Positions 31,674-39,494 of a DNA stretch of 44,768 nt are shown here, one piece after another. Made by a program: the position numbers and the translations under genes. The stretch is from assembly GCA_947373105.1 (NCBI GenBank), contig CANBWK010000012.1, positions 1 to 44,768 on the forward strand, written 5' to 3'. How positions within the stretch are numbered: the first letter of the stretch is position 1; each line of letters opens with the position of its first letter. This stretch comes from Comamonadaceae bacterium (GTDB lineage: Bacteria > Pseudomonadota > Gammaproteobacteria > Burkholderiales > Burkholderiaceae_C). The notes beneath the pieces are model-generated. The model did not search any database and was not told the origin of the DNA. It saw only the letters and a list, made by a program, of their open reading frames with translations.

Positions 31674-31706
31674 TCTTCCCGATTTCATTTGCACTGGAGC
31701 CTCAAA

Positions 31707-32744
31707 ATGAGCAAACGTTTCTTCCTCAAAGCCACCGCCATGCTGGCCGTTGTGACCGCCATGGGCACTGCCCATGCCCAGTCCACCCCAATTAAATTCC
31801 AATTGGACTGGCGCTTTGAAGGCCCAGCAGCCTTGTTTTTGACGCCTGTGGCCAAGGGTTATTTCAAAGACGCCAAGTTGGACGTCACGGTCGACGCAGG
31901 CAACGGCTCTGGCGGCGCGGTTACCCGTGTGGCTTCAGGTACCTATGACATGGGCTTTGCCGATCTGGCGGCCTTGATGGAGTTCCACGCCAATAACCCC
32001 GATGTGCCCAACAAACCCGTTGCGGTGATGATGGTGTACAACAACACGCCCGCATCGGTTATGGCTTTGAAGAAGTCAGGCATCAAGACACCGGCTGATT
32101 TGTCAGGCAAAAAATTAGGGGCCCCTGTGTTTGATGCGGGACGCCGTGCGTTCCCTATTTTTGCAAAAGCCAACGGGATCTCCAATGTCGCTTGGACTGC
32201 CATGGACCCGCCGCTGCGTGAAACCATGTTGGTGCGCGGGGATGTGGATGCCATCACCGGGTTTACGTTCACCTCCTTGCTGAATATCGAAGCGCGTGGC
32301 GTCAAAGCAGAAGACGTGACGGTTTTGCAATACCCTGACTTCGGCGTCAAGCTGTATGGCAACGCCATCATTGCATCACCCAAATTGATCAAAGAAAACC
32401 CAGCTGCTGTTAAAGCTTTCCTGGTCGCTTTCACCAAAGGTGCCAAGGATGTCATTACCAATCCGGCGGCTGCCATCAATGACGTCAAAGCACGCGACGG
32501 CATCATCAACGTCGAGTTGGAAACACGCCGCATGAAGTTGGCCATTGACACTGTTATCAACAGCCCTGACGCGCGCGAAGAAGGTTTCGGCCAGATCAAG
32601 GGCCCTCGCTTGAGCTTGATGGCCTCGCAAGTGTCGGACGCCTTCAACACCAAAACGCGCGTCAATCCGGAAACGATCTGGAATGGCAGTTTTCTGCCCA
32701 CGGCCAAAGAGCTGGACATCTTGCCCAAGCCCGCTAAAAAATAA
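31707..32744 (+). CDS. ABC transporter periplasmic substrate-binding protein (NMT1/THI5-SsuA/TauA family)
   Basis: The start is the ATG at 31707, with GGAG seven bases upstream; the frame also extends to a TTG at 31689. The 345-residue product has a signal peptide ending GTAHAQS, then IKFQLDWRFEGPAALFLTPVAKGYF, the NMT1-type opening. GGAVTRVASGTYDMGFADLAALM is the hinge and ligand region. Members bind thiamine precursors, sulfonates, nitrate or aromatic acids, so the ligand is open; a nitrogen compound or pyrimidine would suit the neighbourhood. ATPase and permease genes follow directly. Confidence 0.9.
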   Translation: MSKRFFLKATAMLAVVTAMGTAHAQSTPIKFQLDWRFEGPAALFLTPVAKGYFKDAKLDVTVDAGNGSGGAVTRVASGTYDMGFADLAALMEFHANNPDVPNKPVAVMMVYNNTPASVMALKKSGIKTPADLSGKKLGAPVFDAGRRAFPIFAKANGISNVAWTAMDPPLRETMLVRGDVDAITGFTFTSLLNIEARGVKAEDVTVLQYPDFGVKLYGNAIIASPKLIKENPAAVKAFLVAFTKGAKDVITNPAAAINDVKARDGIINVELETRRMKLAIDTVINSPDAREEGFGQIKGPRLSLMASQVSDAFNTKTRVNPETIWNGSFLPTAKELDILPKPAKK

Positions 32745-32767
32745 GCTACAACACACCCGCATTGCGC

Positions 32768-33586
32768 ATGACATCGCCTAACTTTGTTGACTTTCAAAAC
32801 GTATGGCTCGCCTATAACGACGAGCTGTTAGCAGAAAATCATTTTGCGGTTGAAGACATCAACCTCCAAGTCAAACAAGGTGAGTTCATTGCCATTGTGG
32901 GACCTTCAGGTTGCGGCAAGTCCACCTTCATGAAGTTGACCACGGGTTTGAAAATGCCCAGCAAAGGGCGCATTCTGGTGGATGGCGCGCCGGTCACCGG
33001 GCCGCTAAAAATAAGCGGCATGGCATTTCAAGCGTCATCGCTGCTCCCTTGGCGCACCACGCTCGACAATGTCTTGCTTCCGCTCGAAATCGTGGAGCCG
33101 TTTCGCTCCAACTTCAAGCAAAAGCGGGCTGAGTATGAAGCCCGTGCCATCAAGCTGCTTCAAACCGTGGGGTTGGCGGGTTACGAAAAAAAGTTCCCTT
33201 GGCAACTTTCAGGGGGTATGCAACAACGCGCCAGCATTTGCCGCGCATTGATTCATGAGCCGAAAATGCTGCTGCTCGACGAACCTTTTGGTGCGCTTGA
33301 CGCTTTCACCCGAGAGGAGTTGTGGTGCATCTTGCGTGATCTGTGGACTGCGCAAAAGTTCAACGTGATTTTGGTCACCCATGATTTGCGCGAGTCGGTT
33401 TTCCTGGCTGATACGGTGTATGTGATGAGCAAGAGTCCTGGCCGATTTGTGGTCAAGCGCGACATTGACTTGCCCCGCCCCCGTGACCTTGAAATCACCT
33501 ACACACCCGAATTCACCAACATCGTGCACGAATTGCGGGGCCATATTGGTGCCATGCGCCAAAACAGTGCCATCACCCCACCTTGA
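32768..33586 (+). CDS. ABC transporter ATP-binding protein (SsuB/TauB family)
   Basis: The 272-residue ATPase starts at the ATG at 32768 (a TTG at 32762 is also in frame). Walker A is GPSGCGKS at residues 45-52, the signature is LSGGMQQR, and Walker B is MLLLDEPFGALD, followed by the switch histidine in LVTHD. It powers the importer whose binding protein is encoded 23 bp upstream and whose permease is 7 bp downstream. Confidence 0.94.
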   Translation: MTSPNFVDFQNVWLAYNDELLAENHFAVEDINLQVKQGEFIAIVGPSGCGKSTFMKLTTGLKMPSKGRILVDGAPVTGPLKISGMAFQASSLLPWRTTLDNVLLPLEIVEPFRSNFKQKRAEYEARAIKLLQTVGLAGYEKKFPWQLSGGMQQRASICRALIHEPKMLLLDEPFGALDAFTREELWCILRDLWTAQKFNVILVTHDLRESVFLADTVYVMSKSPGRFVVKRDIDLPRPRDLEITYTPEFTNIVHELRGHIGAMRQNSAITPP

Positions 33587-33593
33587 TCCAGCC

Positions 33594-34361
33594 ATGAAAC
33601 AAAAAACACTTGAAAGCTGGTCGCCTTGGATTTTATTGGTGGCGACTATTTTGATTTGGCAAGGTTTGTGCTCGGCCTTTCAAGTCTCAGAATTTATATT
33701 CCCCAGCCCGTGGCGGATTGCGGTGCAAACCATCGAATACCGCGATGTCATTGCGGGCCACGCTTGGCGCACCTACTGGGTGACGATGGCAGGCTTCGGC
33801 ATTGCCATTGTGGTCGGCGTGTTGCTGGGCTTTGTGATCGGCAGCTCGCGTTTGGCCTATGCCGCGGTTTACCCCTTGATGACCGCATTCAACGCATTGC
33901 CTAAAGCGGCCTTTGTGCCGATCTTGGTGGTGTGGTTCGGGATTGGCATTGGCCCCGCCATTCTGACCGCGTTTTTGATCAGTTTCTTTCCGATCATGGT
34001 CAACATCGCAACAGGCTTGGCCACCTTGGAGCCTGAACTCGAAGACGTCCTGCGCGTCCTCGGTGCCAAGCGCTGGGATGTGTTGGTCAAAGTAGGGCTG
34101 CCCCGATCGATGCCTTACTTCTATGGGTCACTCAAAGTGGCGATCACTTTGGCCTTTGTAGGCACCACCGTTTCAGAGATGACGGCTGCCAATGAAGGCA
34201 TTGGTTACCTGTTGATCTCCGCCGGTTCAGCCATGCAAATGGGCCTGGCCTTCTCGGGCTTGGTGGTGGTCGGCGCCATGGCCATGGTGATGTATGAACT
34301 CTTCAGTTACATCGAAAAACACACCACGGGTTGGGCACACCGAGGTTCACAGAATGACTAG
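33594..34361 (+). CDS. ABC transporter permease (SsuC/TauC family)
   Basis: The true start is the ATG at 33594, 7 bp after the ATPase stop; an upstream open frame inside the ATPase gene is an artefact. The 255-residue protein has about six membrane helices and the EAA-type coupling loop near LEPELEDVLRVLGAKRWDVL. It completes the three-gene importer and is followed by a strong intrinsic terminator. Confidence 0.93.
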   Translation: MKQKTLESWSPWILLVATILIWQGLCSAFQVSEFIFPSPWRIAVQTIEYRDVIAGHAWRTYWVTMAGFGIAIVVGVLLGFVIGSSRLAYAAVYPLMTAFNALPKAAFVPILVVWFGIGIGPAILTAFLISFFPIMVNIATGLATLEPELEDVLRVLGAKRWDVLVKVGLPRSMPYFYGSLKVAITLAFVGTTVSEMTAANEGIGYLLISAGSAMQMGLAFSGLVVVGAMAMVMYELFSYIEKHTTGWAHRGSQND

Positions 34362-34385: not shown

Positions 34386-34412
34386 AAAAACGAGCAAAAG
34401 CTCGTTTTTTTT
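34386..34412 (+). terminator. Intrinsic terminator after the ABC importer
   Basis: AAAAACGAGC pairs with GCTCGTTTTT around an AAAA loop, and the arm continues into eight T residues and TTATTT. It insulates the ABC importer from the channel operon that starts 107 bp further on. Confidence 0.9.
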
Positions 34413-34518: not shown

Positions 34519-35064
34519 ATGAATTCAACAGAAGTTATAACCGAGCCCGTACAAACGGGGCCTAACGCCTTTGACATCGGTTTTATGGTCGTAATGGCCT
34601 GCTTGATGGTCTTTGTCTTCTGGTTGACGACCATCAACTACTCTGAAGGCATGAAAACTGAAGTGGCCAAACGCAATGGTGAAGCTTGGACAGAATGGCT
34701 AACCACAGCGGGCACGACACGGTTCAACGATGATTATGCGCATGCGCCCTGCTCAGGAAAAGCAGAACCAGGCACTTGGGGTGAATGTGCGGCCTATATC
34801 AAGTCGCAAACCAGCCTGAAGGCATTGGTCAATACTTTTTTTGACAAACCCCCTGAATTCATACCCCAATGCAACAAAGAAGATCGCTCCACCACCGGCG
34901 CGATCGTGATTGAAAACATGGTGGCAACACCTCCCGGCTCTGCCGTTCCTTTTATTGTCAAGCCCTTGACCAATGAGGACCTCATCAGCACCAAATTGCA
35001 GTTGCGAATCACCGTTTGCGACAAGGGTGGCTATTCGATCAAAGTTTCCGAGTTTGAGTTCTGA
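34519..35064 (+). CDS. Small single-helix membrane protein of unknown function in the channel operon
   Basis: The 181-residue protein is not recognised. It has one strong hydrophobic helix at about 19-40 (DIGFMVVMACLMVFVFWLTT) and a soluble domain of about 140 residues with four cysteines (78, 90, 118, 167), enough for two disulfides if the domain is periplasmic. The N-terminal tail is acidic and lacks the positive charges expected for a cytoplasmic N-terminus, so orientation is uncertain. A GAGGAG ribosome binding site precedes the start. It ends 8 bp before the tandem voltage-sensor channel gene and is almost certainly co-transcribed, so an accessory channel subunit is a reasonable guess. 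Confidence 0.8.
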   Translation: MNSTEVITEPVQTGPNAFDIGFMVVMACLMVFVFWLTTINYSEGMKTEVAKRNGEAWTEWLTTAGTTRFNDDYAHAPCSGKAEPGTWGECAAYIKSQTSLKALVNTFFDKPPEFIPQCNKEDRSTTGAIVIENMVATPPGSAVPFIVKPLTNEDLISTKLQLRITVCDKGGYSIKVSEFEF

Positions 35065-35072
35065 GGTGCACC

Positions 35073-36716
35073 ATGGCAAACGATAAAACCATTTATCTCA
35101 AAGACCTGAACGTCGCCTCTTTGTTGGGCAAAGACGAAGCAGCCAATATCCCCTCTGACCTGCCCATGCGCAAGTGGCTGTATGCGTGGCTTCTGGATCC
35201 CACCATTCCAGGCAACATGCAGAAATCCGTTGACAAGTGGCTGGGCATCCTGATTGTGGCCAACTTGTTCACGTTGATGTTTGAACATGTACCCGCCATC
35301 TTTGAGCCCAATAAAACATGGTTTCACTTCTTTGATATTTTCTCGGTTGCGGTCTTCACGGTGGAGTACTTTCTTCGCCTGTACATGGCACCTGAAGACC
35401 CGGAATTCAACAAGAAAAAGCACGCCCGACTGGGTTTTGTCAGCAGCCCCTTTGCCATCATTGACTTCTTGGCTGTCGCACCTTTTTACTTGCAAGCCTT
35501 CTTGCCTGTTGACTTGCGCGTCTTGAGAGCCCTGCGACTGTTGCGGATTTTGAAGCTTTTCAGAATCGTGATTCCAGCCTACAAGGACTTCCAAGTCCTG
35601 AATGCCGGCAGAACTTTCCGCCAAAAAGTACACGCACTGGTCTTTCCAAGCAAGTTTGGAGGCGAATTACAAAAAATATTCGATGTCTTTATTGGTATTT
35701 GGGTTTTACTGTCGGTATTGGCTGTGATCCTGGAGTCTGTTCAAAGCATTCACTACATCCTGAACCTGCAATTTGTCATTTTGGACGGTGTCGCAGTGGC
35801 CATTTTCTCGCTGGAATATTTCATGCGCTTGTATTCATGCGTAGAAGAACCAGGTCACAAAAATGCGGTGATGGGTAGGATCAAGCAAGCCAAGTCACCT
35901 TCAACCTTTATTGACTTTATTGCCATCCTGCCCTTTTTCTTGGAGGTGTTTTTGCATCACCTTCTGGATTTGAGATTCTTGCGAATATTCCGCTTGTCAA
36001 GATTACTCAAACTCACCCGCAACAGTGATGCCACCGAAGTCTTGTTCCGTGTGATTGCGCGTGAATGGCCTGTCATGGGCGCTGCTGCTTTTATCATGGG
36101 TTTGTTATTGATTTTGACTGCCAGCTTAGGTTACTTGCTTGAGCACGATGCCCAGCCTGAGAAGTTTGAAAACATTCCCCAGTCGATTTACTGGGCCGTC
36201 ATCACACTGGCATCGGTGGGCTATGGGGACATCTCACCTGTGACCCCCATCGGGCGGGCCATGACATCTGTACTGGCCTTGCTGGGTATTGGTATTTTTG
36301 CCATCCCTGCTGCGCTGTTGGCGTCTGCTTTCAGTGACGAATTGGTCAAAGACCGTGATGCATTGAAGGCCAATTTGTTTGCGATTCTCAAAGACGGCAA
36401 AATTGAAGAAAAAGAGGCTCAATTCATCCGCGAAGAAGCTGAACGCCTTCACCTTACAGTTGCCGAAGTCAATGCCTTGATTGACACGGTGATGAAAGAA
36501 AAGGAAATCGAGGACAACCTCAAAGCCTTACCAATACATACCATTGCACAAAGGCCTGAACACGCTGTGGAGTACTTTAAAACGGCGATCAGCGAGTTGC
36601 GCCAAATGAGCATGCAAATGGAGCCAGGATCATTTGAAGCAACTGCAAAACAGTCCGATCGACTTACAGCCTCTGAAATGGCTTTATGGCATCAAATACA
36701 AGGCAAATCGCAATAA
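35073..36716 (+). CDS. Voltage-gated potassium-type channel with two tandem voltage-sensor domains
   Basis: The 547-residue protein has a first S1-S4 domain (about 55-166) with S4 charges R149, R152, R155, R158, K161 and R164, and no pore behind it. A second S1-S4 follows (about 203-317; R301, R304, R307, R310, K313, R316), then S5 (about 333-356), a pore with TLASVGYGD (378-386) and S6 (about 394-420). The S-V-G-Y-G-D filter fits potassium selectivity. The C-terminal 430-480 stretch (ILKDGKIEEKEAQFIREEAE) is a helical module also found in the next two channels. Usual prokaryotic Kv subunits have one sensor and about 250-300 residues. It starts 8 bp after the small membrane protein gene. Confidence 0.88.
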   Translation: MANDKTIYLKDLNVASLLGKDEAANIPSDLPMRKWLYAWLLDPTIPGNMQKSVDKWLGILIVANLFTLMFEHVPAIFEPNKTWFHFFDIFSVAVFTVEYFLRLYMAPEDPEFNKKKHARLGFVSSPFAIIDFLAVAPFYLQAFLPVDLRVLRALRLLRILKLFRIVIPAYKDFQVLNAGRTFRQKVHALVFPSKFGGELQKIFDVFIGIWVLLSVLAVILESVQSIHYILNLQFVILDGVAVAIFSLEYFMRLYSCVEEPGHKNAVMGRIKQAKSPSTFIDFIAILPFFLEVFLHHLLDLRFLRIFRLSRLLKLTRNSDATEVLFRVIAREWPVMGAAAFIMGLLLILTASLGYLLEHDAQPEKFENIPQSIYWAVITLASVGYGDISPVTPIGRAMTSVLALLGIGIFAIPAALLASAFSDELVKDRDALKANLFAILKDGKIEEKEAQFIREEAERLHLTVAEVNALIDTVMKEKEIEDNLKALPIHTIAQRPEHAVEYFKTAISELRQMSMQMEPGSFEATAKQSDRLTASEMALWHQIQGKSQ

Positions 36717-36788: not shown

Positions 36789-37700
36789 ATGCTCGGAAAA
36801 CTTCAAAAAAATGTGATGGAGATCCTGGCAGGGGCTCCTCACCAACCCCTCAGCCGGTATGTGGAGTGGATGATCACTGTGGTGGTTCTGGTGAACTGTT
36901 CGGCAGTGATTTTGGACTCGGTTCCCGAAATTCACGCCGATCACAAAGAGTTTTTTCACGAGCTGGAATTTTGGAGCGTGATGTTTTTCACGGTGGAATA
37001 CGTTCTGCGCGTTTGGTCATTGGGTGCACTTTACTCCCCTGATCAAGGCGGCGCCTGGAAGGGCCGCAAGGGCTACATATTCAGTGCTTTTGGTTTGGTC
37101 GATTTTTTTGCCACCATGCCCCATTACCTGCACATGTTCATGCCCGGTTTGGATCTGCGCATCTTGCGCGTATTGCGACTTTTGCGCATTTTGAAATTGT
37201 CGAAATACAACACCGCTTTGCAAGACTTGTTTCAGGCCGTTTACGCTGAACGGCGGGCCTTCGGTTCGGCGGCTTTTTTGTTGTTGATTTCCACGGTGGT
37301 ATCCGCCTCCTTGATGCACTTTGCTGAAGGCCATGAGCAACCAGAAGCCTTTGGCTCTATTCCTCACGCCATTTATTGGTCGATTGTCACCATCACTTCT
37401 GGATATGGAAACATCGAACCCGTCACCAAAGCGGGTGAGCTTATTGCGCTGATGACAGGCTTTTTGGGAGTGTGTATGGCGGCGATCATGACGGGTATTG
37501 TGGCCTCCGCCTTTGCAACACAGCTCTCGCGCAAGAAATCGGCTTACCTGGTTCAATTGCGCAAAGTACTTGAAGATGGTGTGGTCAGTGATGCAGAGCG
37601 CAACACCCTCAAACATCTCCAAACACAGTACCGATTATCGGACGCAGAAGTTCAAAAGATGTCAGATGAAATCCTCGCAGGTAAAGCTGCCAAGCCATGA
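36789..37700 (+). CDS. Voltage-gated ion channel paralogue with shortened TSGYGN filter
   Basis: The 303-residue protein has one S1-S4 domain (about 27-140; S4 charges R124, R127, R130, R133, K136), S5 (about 158-178), a pore helix and S6 (about 215-245). The filter reads TITSGYGN (201-208). Compared with TLASVGYGD in the upstream channel, the valine is missing and Asp is Asn, so the filter is one residue shorter. Residues 255-297 (LRKVLEDGVVSDAERNTLKHLQ) form the shared C-terminal module. It lies 72 bp after the first channel gene, in an AT-rich gap, and overlaps the third by 4 bp. Ion selectivity cannot be predicted safely. Confidence 0.87.
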   Translation: MLGKLQKNVMEILAGAPHQPLSRYVEWMITVVVLVNCSAVILDSVPEIHADHKEFFHELEFWSVMFFTVEYVLRVWSLGALYSPDQGGAWKGRKGYIFSAFGLVDFFATMPHYLHMFMPGLDLRILRVLRLLRILKLSKYNTALQDLFQAVYAERRAFGSAAFLLLISTVVSASLMHFAEGHEQPEAFGSIPHAIYWSIVTITSGYGNIEPVTKAGELIALMTGFLGVCMAAIMTGIVASAFATQLSRKKSAYLVQLRKVLEDGVVSDAERNTLKHLQTQYRLSDAEVQKMSDEILAGKAAKP

Positions 37701-38626
37701 ACGAGGCCAACACAAGCAGTTTGCGAAAGATCAAACGCAGGATTTACGAGATCCTTGAAGGCGAGGTCATTGACCGGGCCAGCCGTAGTTGTGAAATTTT
37801 TATCGCCGCCTTGGTCGTAGCCAACGTGGTGGCGATCATTCTGGAGTCAGTTCACTCCATTCACGAAGCCTACGAAGCCTACTTCCATATTTTTGACTTG
37901 GTCAGTGTGATTGTTTTTTCGCTGGAATATGTGCTCCGCGTGTGGACTTACAGCGAAAAACACACCGGCCCAGGTGACAGCCCGTGGAAAGGCCGCAAGG
38001 AATACGTTTTCAGCGTGTTCGGCTTGGTCGACTTCTTCAGCACCGTGCCGTTTTACTTGCAGTTGCTTTTCCCTGGAGCCGATTTGCGTGTGCTGCGGAT
38101 GTTCCGCTTGCTGCGAATTTTCAAACTCTCCCGCTACAACAGTGCCATGGAAGACATGCTGGAAGCGATCAAGTCCGAGTGGGATTCTTTCTCTTCGGCC
38201 ATGTTCCTGCTTTTCATCAGCTGCTTGCTCTTTTCTTCCCTGATCTACATCATTGAAGGTCATGACCAACCTGAGGTTTTCCCCTCCATCCCCGCTGCCA
38301 TGCATTGGTTTATGTTGACCATCATTTCAGGATGGGGCAACGTAGATCCGGTGACCTATTTGGGTACCGTTTTGGTTATCGTGACGCAAATTTTGGCCAT
38401 TGCCTTGGCGGCGATCTTGACCGGCGTGGTAGCCACCGCCTATACCGCACAGGTTCAGCGCAGAGAATCTATCTATGAAATGGAAGTGCGTGAAGTGCTG
38501 GCCGACGGCGTCGTCACCGAAGAAGAAAAAATCAAACTCAAAACTCTGCAGTTGAAATATGGCATGTCTGATGAGCAAGTTGATGCCATTGCCAACCAGG
38601 TTAAAGCTGAAAACAGCAACGGCTGA
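37697..38626 (+). CDS. Voltage-gated ion channel paralogue with ISGWGN filter
   Basis: The 309-residue protein is a close paralogue of the preceding one (similar EGHDQPE turret and PWKGRKEYVFSVFGLVDFF S2-S3 loop). S1-S4 spans about 33-147 (R131, R134, R137, R140, K143, R146). The filter is TIISGWGN (208-215), again one residue shorter than the potassium signature and with Trp for Tyr. The C-terminal module is at 262-306 (VREVLADGVVTEEEKIKLKT). The ATGA overlap with the previous gene implies translational coupling and near-equal synthesis, compatible with a heteromeric channel. The urease accessory gene ureD starts 37 bp downstream with no terminator between. Confidence 0.87.
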   Translation: MNEANTSSLRKIKRRIYEILEGEVIDRASRSCEIFIAALVVANVVAIILESVHSIHEAYEAYFHIFDLVSVIVFSLEYVLRVWTYSEKHTGPGDSPWKGRKEYVFSVFGLVDFFSTVPFYLQLLFPGADLRVLRMFRLLRIFKLSRYNSAMEDMLEAIKSEWDSFSSAMFLLFISCLLFSSLIYIIEGHDQPEVFPSIPAAMHWFMLTIISGWGNVDPVTYLGTVLVIVTQILAIALAAILTGVVATAYTAQVQRRESIYEMEVREVLADGVVTEEEKIKLKTLQLKYGMSDEQVDAIANQVKAENSNG

Positions 38627-38663: not shown

Positions 38664-39494
38664 ATGACTTGGCACGCGGAACTCTCACTTAACTACCTGA
38701 ATGAGAACCATCGCAGCGTCGCCCGTTACGCCCATCAAGGGCCGCTGCGAATTTTAAAAAGCCTCTACCCAGAAGGCGATGCCATCTGTCACAACGTCCT
38801 GGTTCATCCTCCCGGTGGTTTGGTTGGGGGCGACACCCTGGACATGACCGTGACTGTCGGTTCGGGTGCACACGGACTGGTCACGACACCGGGTGCAACG
38901 CGCTTTTACAAGTCAGAGGCTGGCTTGGCGACGCAACAATTACAGGCACGTGTCGAAGATGGCGCACGGCTTGAATGGTTACCTCTCGAATCCATCGCCT
39001 ATAACCAATGTGACGCGCTGAACCGGGCTGTGTTTGATCTGTCACCCAACGGTGAAATGATGGCTTGGGACATCACGGCACTGGGATTGCCGTCCGCTGG
39101 CATGCCTTTTGTTCAAGGAACTTTCAGACAGCATTTGGAGATCAAGGGGGCGTGGCTGGAGCGCGGCACATTGGATGCCACGGACACCCGTTTACTCAAC
39201 AGTCCCTTGGGCCTGGCGGGTCAAAAATGCATGGCGACCTTGGTGTTTGCCAGTGGGAGCGCCATTGCACCCGCCAGATTAGAGCGTGGCCTTGCCAGTG
39301 CCCGAGAGCGGATGGAGGCGCACAGCCTTCGCCTTCAAGCGGGCATAACATCACCGCACCCGCAGGTCATGGCCGCTCGCGTTTTAGCGCCCGTCACTGA
39401 ACATGCCATGCAACTGCTCAAACACATTTGGGCGATTTGGCGACAAGACATGTGGCAACTTGGCAGCACACCTCCTCGCCTGTGGAACCTTTAG
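38664..39494 (+). CDS. ureD: Urease accessory protein UreD (UreH)
   Basis: The 276-residue protein helps assemble the nickel centre of urease together with UreF and UreG. Family segments are GPLRILKSLYPEG, VLVHPPGGLVGGD, TTPGATRFYKS and WLPLESIAYNQC. No urease structural gene (ureA, ureB or ureC) lies next to it in this window, which is unusual, because ureD commonly heads the ureDABC cluster directly after urtE on the same strand. Here it points toward urtE. It could be transcribed from the channel operon, 37 bp upstream. Confidence 0.94.
   Translation: MTWHAELSLNYLNENHRSVARYAHQGPLRILKSLYPEGDAICHNVLVHPPGGLVGGDTLDMTVTVGSGAHGLVTTPGATRFYKSEAGLATQQLQARVEDGARLEWLPLESIAYNQCDALNRAVFDLSPNGEMMAWDITALGLPSAGMPFVQGTFRQHLEIKGAWLERGTLDATDTRLLNSPLGLAGQKCMATLVFASGSAIAPARLERGLASARERMEAHSLRLQAGITSPHPQVMAARVLAPVTEHAMQLLKHIWAIWRQDMWQLGSTPPRLWNL

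Follow-up and report, generated by a model that had tools for sequence, protein, structure and literature searches.

The window (the whole stretch of DNA that was analysed, 44,768 nucleotides) is a whole contig ending at 44768. It harbours a double-sensor potassium-channel gene preceded by a small membrane-protein gene and followed by two further channel genes; scans for RNA families and tRNAs gave no hit in it. The features, with the evidence in brackets, are as follows.

31689..32744, + strand: NMT1/SsuA-like substrate-binding protein of an ABC importer, a lineage-specific neighbour (Pfam, NCBIfam)
32762..33586, + strand: ATPase of the ABC importer (Pfam)
33594..34361, + strand: permease of the ABC importer (Pfam; start set by relatives of 255 aa)
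34386..34409, + strand: terminator-like ten-pair hairpin with a T tail, between the ABC genes and MP181
34519..35064, + strand: MP181, 181 aa with one N-terminal membrane helix (18-36), proposed accessory subunit
35073..36716, + strand: DVSD, double-sensor channel, 547 aa with 10 predicted membrane helices (ORF reading, Pfam, structure model)
35220..35576, + strand: VSD1 (residues 50-168), S1-S4 (Pfam stretch, model helices, VIA-align, conservation in 89 proteins)
35577..35660, + strand: linker (residues 169-196) with a pre-S1 helix at 182-190 (model)
35661..36026, + strand: VSD2 (residues 197-318) (Pfam, model, VIA-align, conservation)
36027..36347, + strand: pore, S5-P-S6 (residues 319-425), S6 with an IPA motif (PF07885, alignment)
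36204..36230, + strand: selectivity filter TLASVGYGD (residues 378-386) (direct reading)
36348..36713, + strand: cytosolic helical C-terminus (426-547) (model; mean entropy 1.81 bits)
36789..37700, + strand: CH2, single-sensor channel, 303 aa, filter TITSGYGN at 37389-37412 (Pfam, direct reading)
37697..38626, + strand: CH3, single-sensor channel, 309 aa, filter TIISGWGN at 38318-38341 (Pfam, direct reading)
38664..39494, + strand: ureD, urease accessory gene, a lineage-specific neighbour (PF01774)

The preliminary description had placed at 35073..36716 two complete S1-S4 units, each with six basic residues at every third position, in front of a single pore (TLASVGYGD). The ORF was found there, and both S4 ladders read as described: R149, R152, R155, R158, K161 and R164 in VSD1, and R301, R304, R307, R310, K313 and R316 in VSD2. 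Further key residues are E71, F95/E98 and D131 in VSD1 and E221, F245/E248 and D281 in VSD2, such that both sensors carry the Kv features of an S4 with regular Arg/Lys and counter-charges in S2 and S3. Pfam scanning returned PF00520 as two stretches (protein E 1.5e-45) and PF07885 as a single match above cut-off (residues 344-420), with no domain found beyond sensors and pore. VSD1 alone scored 61.9 bits against PF00520 (E 7.9e-17; curated cut-off 25 bits), and the two sensors align at 36% identity over 131 columns (E 2e-25). The monomer model is of moderate quality (mean pLDDT 67, pTM 0.46, with pLDDT <50 over most of the pore, 352-420) and so does not fix the placement of VSD1 relative to VSD2; it does show two separate sensor bundles, each matching Kv sensors in VIA-align, and together with the separate Pfam match of VSD1 this bears out residues 55-166 as an S1-S4 bundle of their own. 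The observation of two sensors before one pore is confirmed in the sequence, and the sensor-sensor-pore reading is supported.

A scan of genome contigs for the channel retained the best 80 of 580 relatives, further and weaker ones lying beyond that list. The homologues sought by the preliminary description were thereby recovered, as every one of these 80 loci spans both sensors (residue <=26 to >=504), with identity to the channel of the window from 58 to 92% and a full-length uninterrupted main-type ORF in 79 (that of L061 is cut by a contig end). Their record labels are Limnohabitans, Rhodoferax, Polaromonas, Comamonas, Comamonadaceae and Burkholderiales, nearly all of them metagenome bins; some labels, taken as given, lie outside (Methylococcaceae for L120, Thermoflexus for L134). 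A second type of double-sensor channel, 44-48% identical, was observed at L039:5308-6912(-), L044:5926-7569(-), L063, L065, L066, L135 and L138. Within the genus of the window, a both-sensor copy was found in 20 of 59 other genomes (in G195 the copy runs off the end of its contig; G203, with two channel fragments, is excluded from the count), while the samples of other genomes gave 1 of 149 for the family (G080), 2 of 348 for the order (G789 and G579; threshold 1e-60) and 1 of 397 for the phylum (G579; threshold 1e-25). A sensor HMM was run on 12 stretches, drawn from the genus, family and phylum searches for their long open frames or as near hits, and found a second significant sensor in none; G591, whose frame has 725 aa, and weak hits to the pore alone that have long frames lay outside this set. 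The double-sensor K+ channel is carried by some freshwater bacteria.

Conservation was determined in an alignment of 89 proteins, comprising 84 from the best 80 loci (79 of the main and five of the second type), the window's own, L039 and L044 (second type), and L139 and L148; two single-sensor TLSTVGYGD neighbours and one fragment were left out. In VSD1, E71, F95, E98, D131, R155, R158, K161 and R164 are unchanged in 89/89, and R149 and R152 are kept in 87/89, with His and Lys instead in L081 and L082. All ten corresponding VSD2 residues (E221, F245, E248, D281, R301, R304, R307, R310, K313 and R316) and the VGYGD of the K+ filter are unchanged in 89/89. As both sensors are covered in the best 80 loci and the charge-sensing residues are near-invariant in the 89 proteins, the sensor pair is neither chance nor an assembly artefact. 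Mean entropy (bits) is 1.08 for VSD1, 0.97 for VSD2, 0.54 for the pore, 1.18 for the linker and 1.81 for the C-terminus; by this measure VSD1 is nearly as conserved as VSD2. Rough dN/dS of the window's gene versus three near relatives, at saturated dS, is 0.020-0.041 for VSD1, 0.022-0.028 for VSD2 and 0.006-0.019 for the pore; the respective values for L042/L043 are 0.021, 0.076 and 0.038, and three closer pairs, with few changes, gave 0.05-0.18 for VSD1 and 0.09-0.19 for VSD2. That VSD1 is so well conserved is an argument for its working as a sensor.

The portion of DVSD formed by VSD2 and the pore matches KCNQ4 over 202-423 (E 2e-24), with the VGYGD filter, the S4 ladder and the S6 PA motif in common; unlike the six-helix subunits of Kv/KCNQ type, DVSD has a second complete sensor in front. 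As PF00520 (Ion_trans) and PF07885 (K+ pore) are both over cut-off, the filter reads VGYG and two sensors serve one pore domain, DVSD is, judged by sequence, a Kv channel variant that departs in one feature only, that of one sensor per pore. The score against the methanogen hyperpolarisation-activated K+ channel family NF040645 was 55.1 bits, versus a curated cut-off of 300. Three short single-sensor relatives (L048, L049 and L150; 387-397 aa) are 44-46% identical over VSD2, pore and C-terminus but are without VSD1, and the DVSD linker aligns with the N-terminus of such relatives (L048 from residue 166, L049 from 177). Two-pore channels, Nav and Cav also hold several sensors per chain, each with its own pore, whereas in DVSD two sensors, with only the linker of ~28 residues (169-196) between them, precede one pore. 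In the sensor-only proteins Hv1, Ci-VSP and TMEM266 the sensor likewise has no pore of its own, but VSD1 is fused to a full Kv channel. No chain in the VIA-align list spans both DVSD sensors, which does not show a new fold. The preliminary description knew of no characterised example, and in the open-access literature, with subscription papers and preprints largely outside it, no description of two sensors before one pore per subunit was found.

MP181 ends 8 bases before the channel start in the window. Among the 79 full-length main-type genes of the best 80 loci, MP181 was found by script in 71 and by eye in one more (L116), and in three (L083, L084 and L119) the upstream side is cut by contig ends; it is thus directly upstream in 72 of the 76 loci with upstream sequence, at a gap of 8-13 bases in 55/71. 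It also adjoins the divergent channel copies L139 (E 8e-29) and L148 (E 1e-12), and is kept beside the channel while other neighbours change: in the 38 loci without permease or CH2 genes, MP181 is the only cluster recurring in most (30/38), the next having 8 members. Since four main-type loci (L123, L126, L130 and L131) and the second paralogue of L044 are without it, MP181 is not obligatory; neither L039 nor L044 has it directly adjoining the second-type gene. In a separate search that serves as an independent check, MP181 was found in 24 of 60 genus genomes, including every one of the 21, the window's own among them, that have the channel. Of the three further genomes, G180 has a channel fragment on a different contig from MP181, both located at contig ends; in G184 MP181 likewise lies at the end of its contig, and G205 gave a partial match to MP181 and no channel. 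G203, which has channel fragments, gave no MP181 hit.

Exactly four Cys follow the membrane helix in 73 of a set of 74 MP181 sequences (in the window at 78, 90, 118 and 167), and hydropathy indicated one helix in 65, two in 7 and none in 2. The Cys pattern suggests disulfides and hence a periplasmic domain; K/R residues lie mostly after the helix (mean 3.0 vs 1.3 before), a distribution that speaks against it. No Pfam family was found in any of 12 members scanned, nor any NCBIfam match for the MP181 of the window. The model built from 12 sequences is poor (pLDDT 51.6), so that the Foldseek result, no match at E <0.001, is uninformative. Gene linkage and co-occurrence are the basis on which MP181 is proposed as an accessory subunit.

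Several other genes were observed next to MP181 or double-sensor genes. At L148:48-1013(+), a canonical single-sensor channel (TLTTVGYGD) has an open frame that overlaps with the MP181 frame, in the order channel, MP181, double-sensor channel. K+ channels also lie immediately before MP181 and the double-sensor gene at L128:5711-7291 and L129:5706-7292; these neighbours (526-528 aa) have one sensor region, split in two HMM pieces in L128, and a tail that we take to be TrkA-type NAD-binding. Two sets of small proteins with a hydrophobic stretch and then LGG[NS]NA, to us reminiscent of DUF4337, occur beside double-sensor genes, one at L039:6993-7613(-) and the other downstream in L079, L093 and L097.

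Sensors of animal Kv channels serve as docking sites for accessory subunits, and VSD1 could similarly be a docking or assembly module that moves little with voltage and holds MP181 and the CH2/CH3 sensors to the channel. The way in which MP181 tracks the double-sensor gene, both in the 72 of 76 loci and in the 21 genus genomes, favours such a role, as does the finding of no MP181 beside the single-sensor relatives L048, L049, L149 and L150 (the L149 and L150 loci being only 3.6 and 4.1 kb). Yet VSD1 keeps a full S4 ladder plus charge-transfer residues, more than docking needs; moreover, L081 and L082, the exceptions at R149 and R152, both have MP181, while channel copies without MP181 retain all VSD1 charge-sensing residues. 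This explanation is thus considered unlikely, if still worth weighing.

Downstream, the start of CH3 overlaps the stop of CH2 by 4 bases, which suggests that their translation is coupled; the two proteins are 45% identical. Both genes are present in 28 of the best 80 loci, and CH2 alone in L070, which ends soon after. As CH2 is not seen in 51 of the 80, some of which are cut short by the end of the contig, CH2 and CH3 are not obligatory. CH2 filters, in 30 same-strand rows, read T-I-T-[SA]-G-[YWF]-G-N in 29, the other being a fragment without filter, and those of CH3 read [SA]GWGN in 28/28; in every filter read (57 rows) one residue is missing, the alignment placing the deletion at the valine, with Asp replaced by Asn. 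This count excludes five TLTTTGYGD channels encoded on the other strand. Channels of 343-354 aa with the filter TLTTTGYGD were observed near the second double-sensor gene in L063, L065, L066, L135 and L138 (minus strand); in L138 the pore helix is preceded by a long insert. The presence of CH2/CH3 beside the channel in the best 80 loci is partly by construction, as the loci were chosen by channel similarity; the genus search with CH2 (60 genomes, threshold 1e-60) is an independent test. It matched in 22 of 60, among which five (G000, that is, the window's own assembly, G157, G163, G191 and G195) have the short-filter pair, all five with a double-sensor gene, and the other 17 have 18 channel loci, all TTVGYGD. 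No description of a GYGN filter was found in the open-access literature. Based on linkage and co-occurrence, CH2 and CH3 may be modulatory subunits, much as CNG channel B subunits and silent Kv subunits join a main subunit, although the CH2/CH3 filter is one residue short and the heteromers are hypothetical.

Upstream of the channel region are the ABC importer, a xanthine permease and purine-degradation genes; downstream, ureD is followed by a convergent urea transporter operon (urtB was tested, the other urt labels come from position). The hairpin at 34386-34409 weakly suggests that the channel genes are transcribed apart from the importer: its ten-pair stem is the longest listed, in a region where 14 terminator-like sites were found vs 11.6 expected. 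In the best 80 loci, many with short flanks, the ABC permease occurs in 35, ureD in 20 and neither in 42. No ureC or ureA was over cut-off in the window's own assembly; since relatives (G157, G191, G155, G179 and G190) carry ureC 7-11 kb from the channel gene on the same strand, its ureC probably lies beyond the contig end. Urease as the core function was rejected and the link is lineage-specific, as G150 has a double-sensor gene with no ureC over cut-off, and ureC lies ~490 kb from the channel gene in G080 and on another contig in G181.

Isolated sensors can conduct protons, as established for Hv1, and urea breakdown consumes H+; VSD1 as an Hv1-like, voltage-gated leak path for protons or cations that has been fused to a K+ channel and pairs H+ with K+ flux would agree with this and with ureD nearby in 20 of the 80 loci. 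It is very improbable, given that the 20 matches of VSD1 to solved chains at E <1e-3 are one Nav and 19 Kv, that the S4 Trp signature we take to mark Hv1 is missing in LRVLRALRLLRILKLFRI, and that double-sensor genes without urease occur (G150). Extending the comparison to E 1 gave Kv, Nav, Cav and three rows of the glucose transporter SLC2A9 (E 0.1), with no Hv1 among the 60 of 63 matches listed.

In a sensor tree of 85 rows, VSD1 forms one group (100/99) spanning both paralogue types, indicating that it has been kept for long, and VSD2 another (99/91), to which three of the four short single-sensor relatives are sister (99/96), the fourth (L149) being a long branch elsewhere. A single origin of the two-sensor layout, predating the split of the two paralogue types, is therefore the most likely. 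The tree joins VSD1 neither to VSD2 nor to CH2/CH3, and AU tests reject none of the groupings (VSD1 with VSD2 and the short relatives, p 0.39; VSD1 with the CH clade, p 0.38; VSD1 with VSD2 alone, p 0.14), such that VSD1 could stem from an internal duplication or from the fusion of a second channel. That VSD1 is a passive leftover of a tandem channel that was fused or has been partly deleted, for which adjoining genes such as CH2-CH3 offer a ready source, is scarcely credible in view of its single long-kept clade, its near-invariant charges and the uninterrupted ORF in 79 of the best 80 loci, the other being cut by a contig end.

The reading that we favour, and hold to be rather probable, is a voltage-gated, K+-selective sensor-sensor-pore channel in which VSD1 modulates the pore via the linker, MP181 is an accessory subunit and CH2/CH3 are modulatory. 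Each subunit would consist of ten membrane helices, and four subunits would make up a tetramer with a single canonical VGYGD pore and eight sensors. VSD2 would be wired to the pore via S4-S5, as in any Kv channel, and confer voltage gating. VSD1 would lie on the outer side of VSD2, connected to the pre-S1 helix of VSD2 by the short cytosolic linker, through which movement of the VSD1 S4 may shift or steepen the voltage response and so alter pore opening. The single helix of MP181 may pack beside the sensors, and CH2 and CH3, where present, may be built into the complex as modulatory subunits whose filters are non-standard. Of all this, the sequences establish the domain layout, the intact and conserved sensors, the K+ filter and the linkage and co-occurrence of the genes; the tetramer, voltage gating, MP181 binding, the heteromers and coupling via the linker are inferred. 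More tentatively, and with less than even confidence, the operon could encode a multi-subunit channel complex of a ten-helix two-sensor pore subunit, a one-helix accessory and two short-filter sister subunits, whose heteromers would tune voltage response and ion selectivity.

DVSD separates sensor number and pore number in nature and offers a natural way to test how an additional sensor affects a channel; with relatives of one sensor (L048, L049 and L150) and of two, the contribution of the second sensor to gating charge, cooperativity and slope can be asked. Experiments are possible, as two carriers appear from their record labels to be cultured (Limnohabitans sp. Jir61, L138, and 2KL-17, L132). 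The CH2/CH3 filters are likewise a natural test of K+ filter tolerance, and MP181 would be a bacterial channel accessory subunit. If the multi-subunit complex exists, it would be a prokaryotic counterpart of the animal Kv and CNG channels with main and auxiliary subunits, with sensors outnumbering pore subunits.
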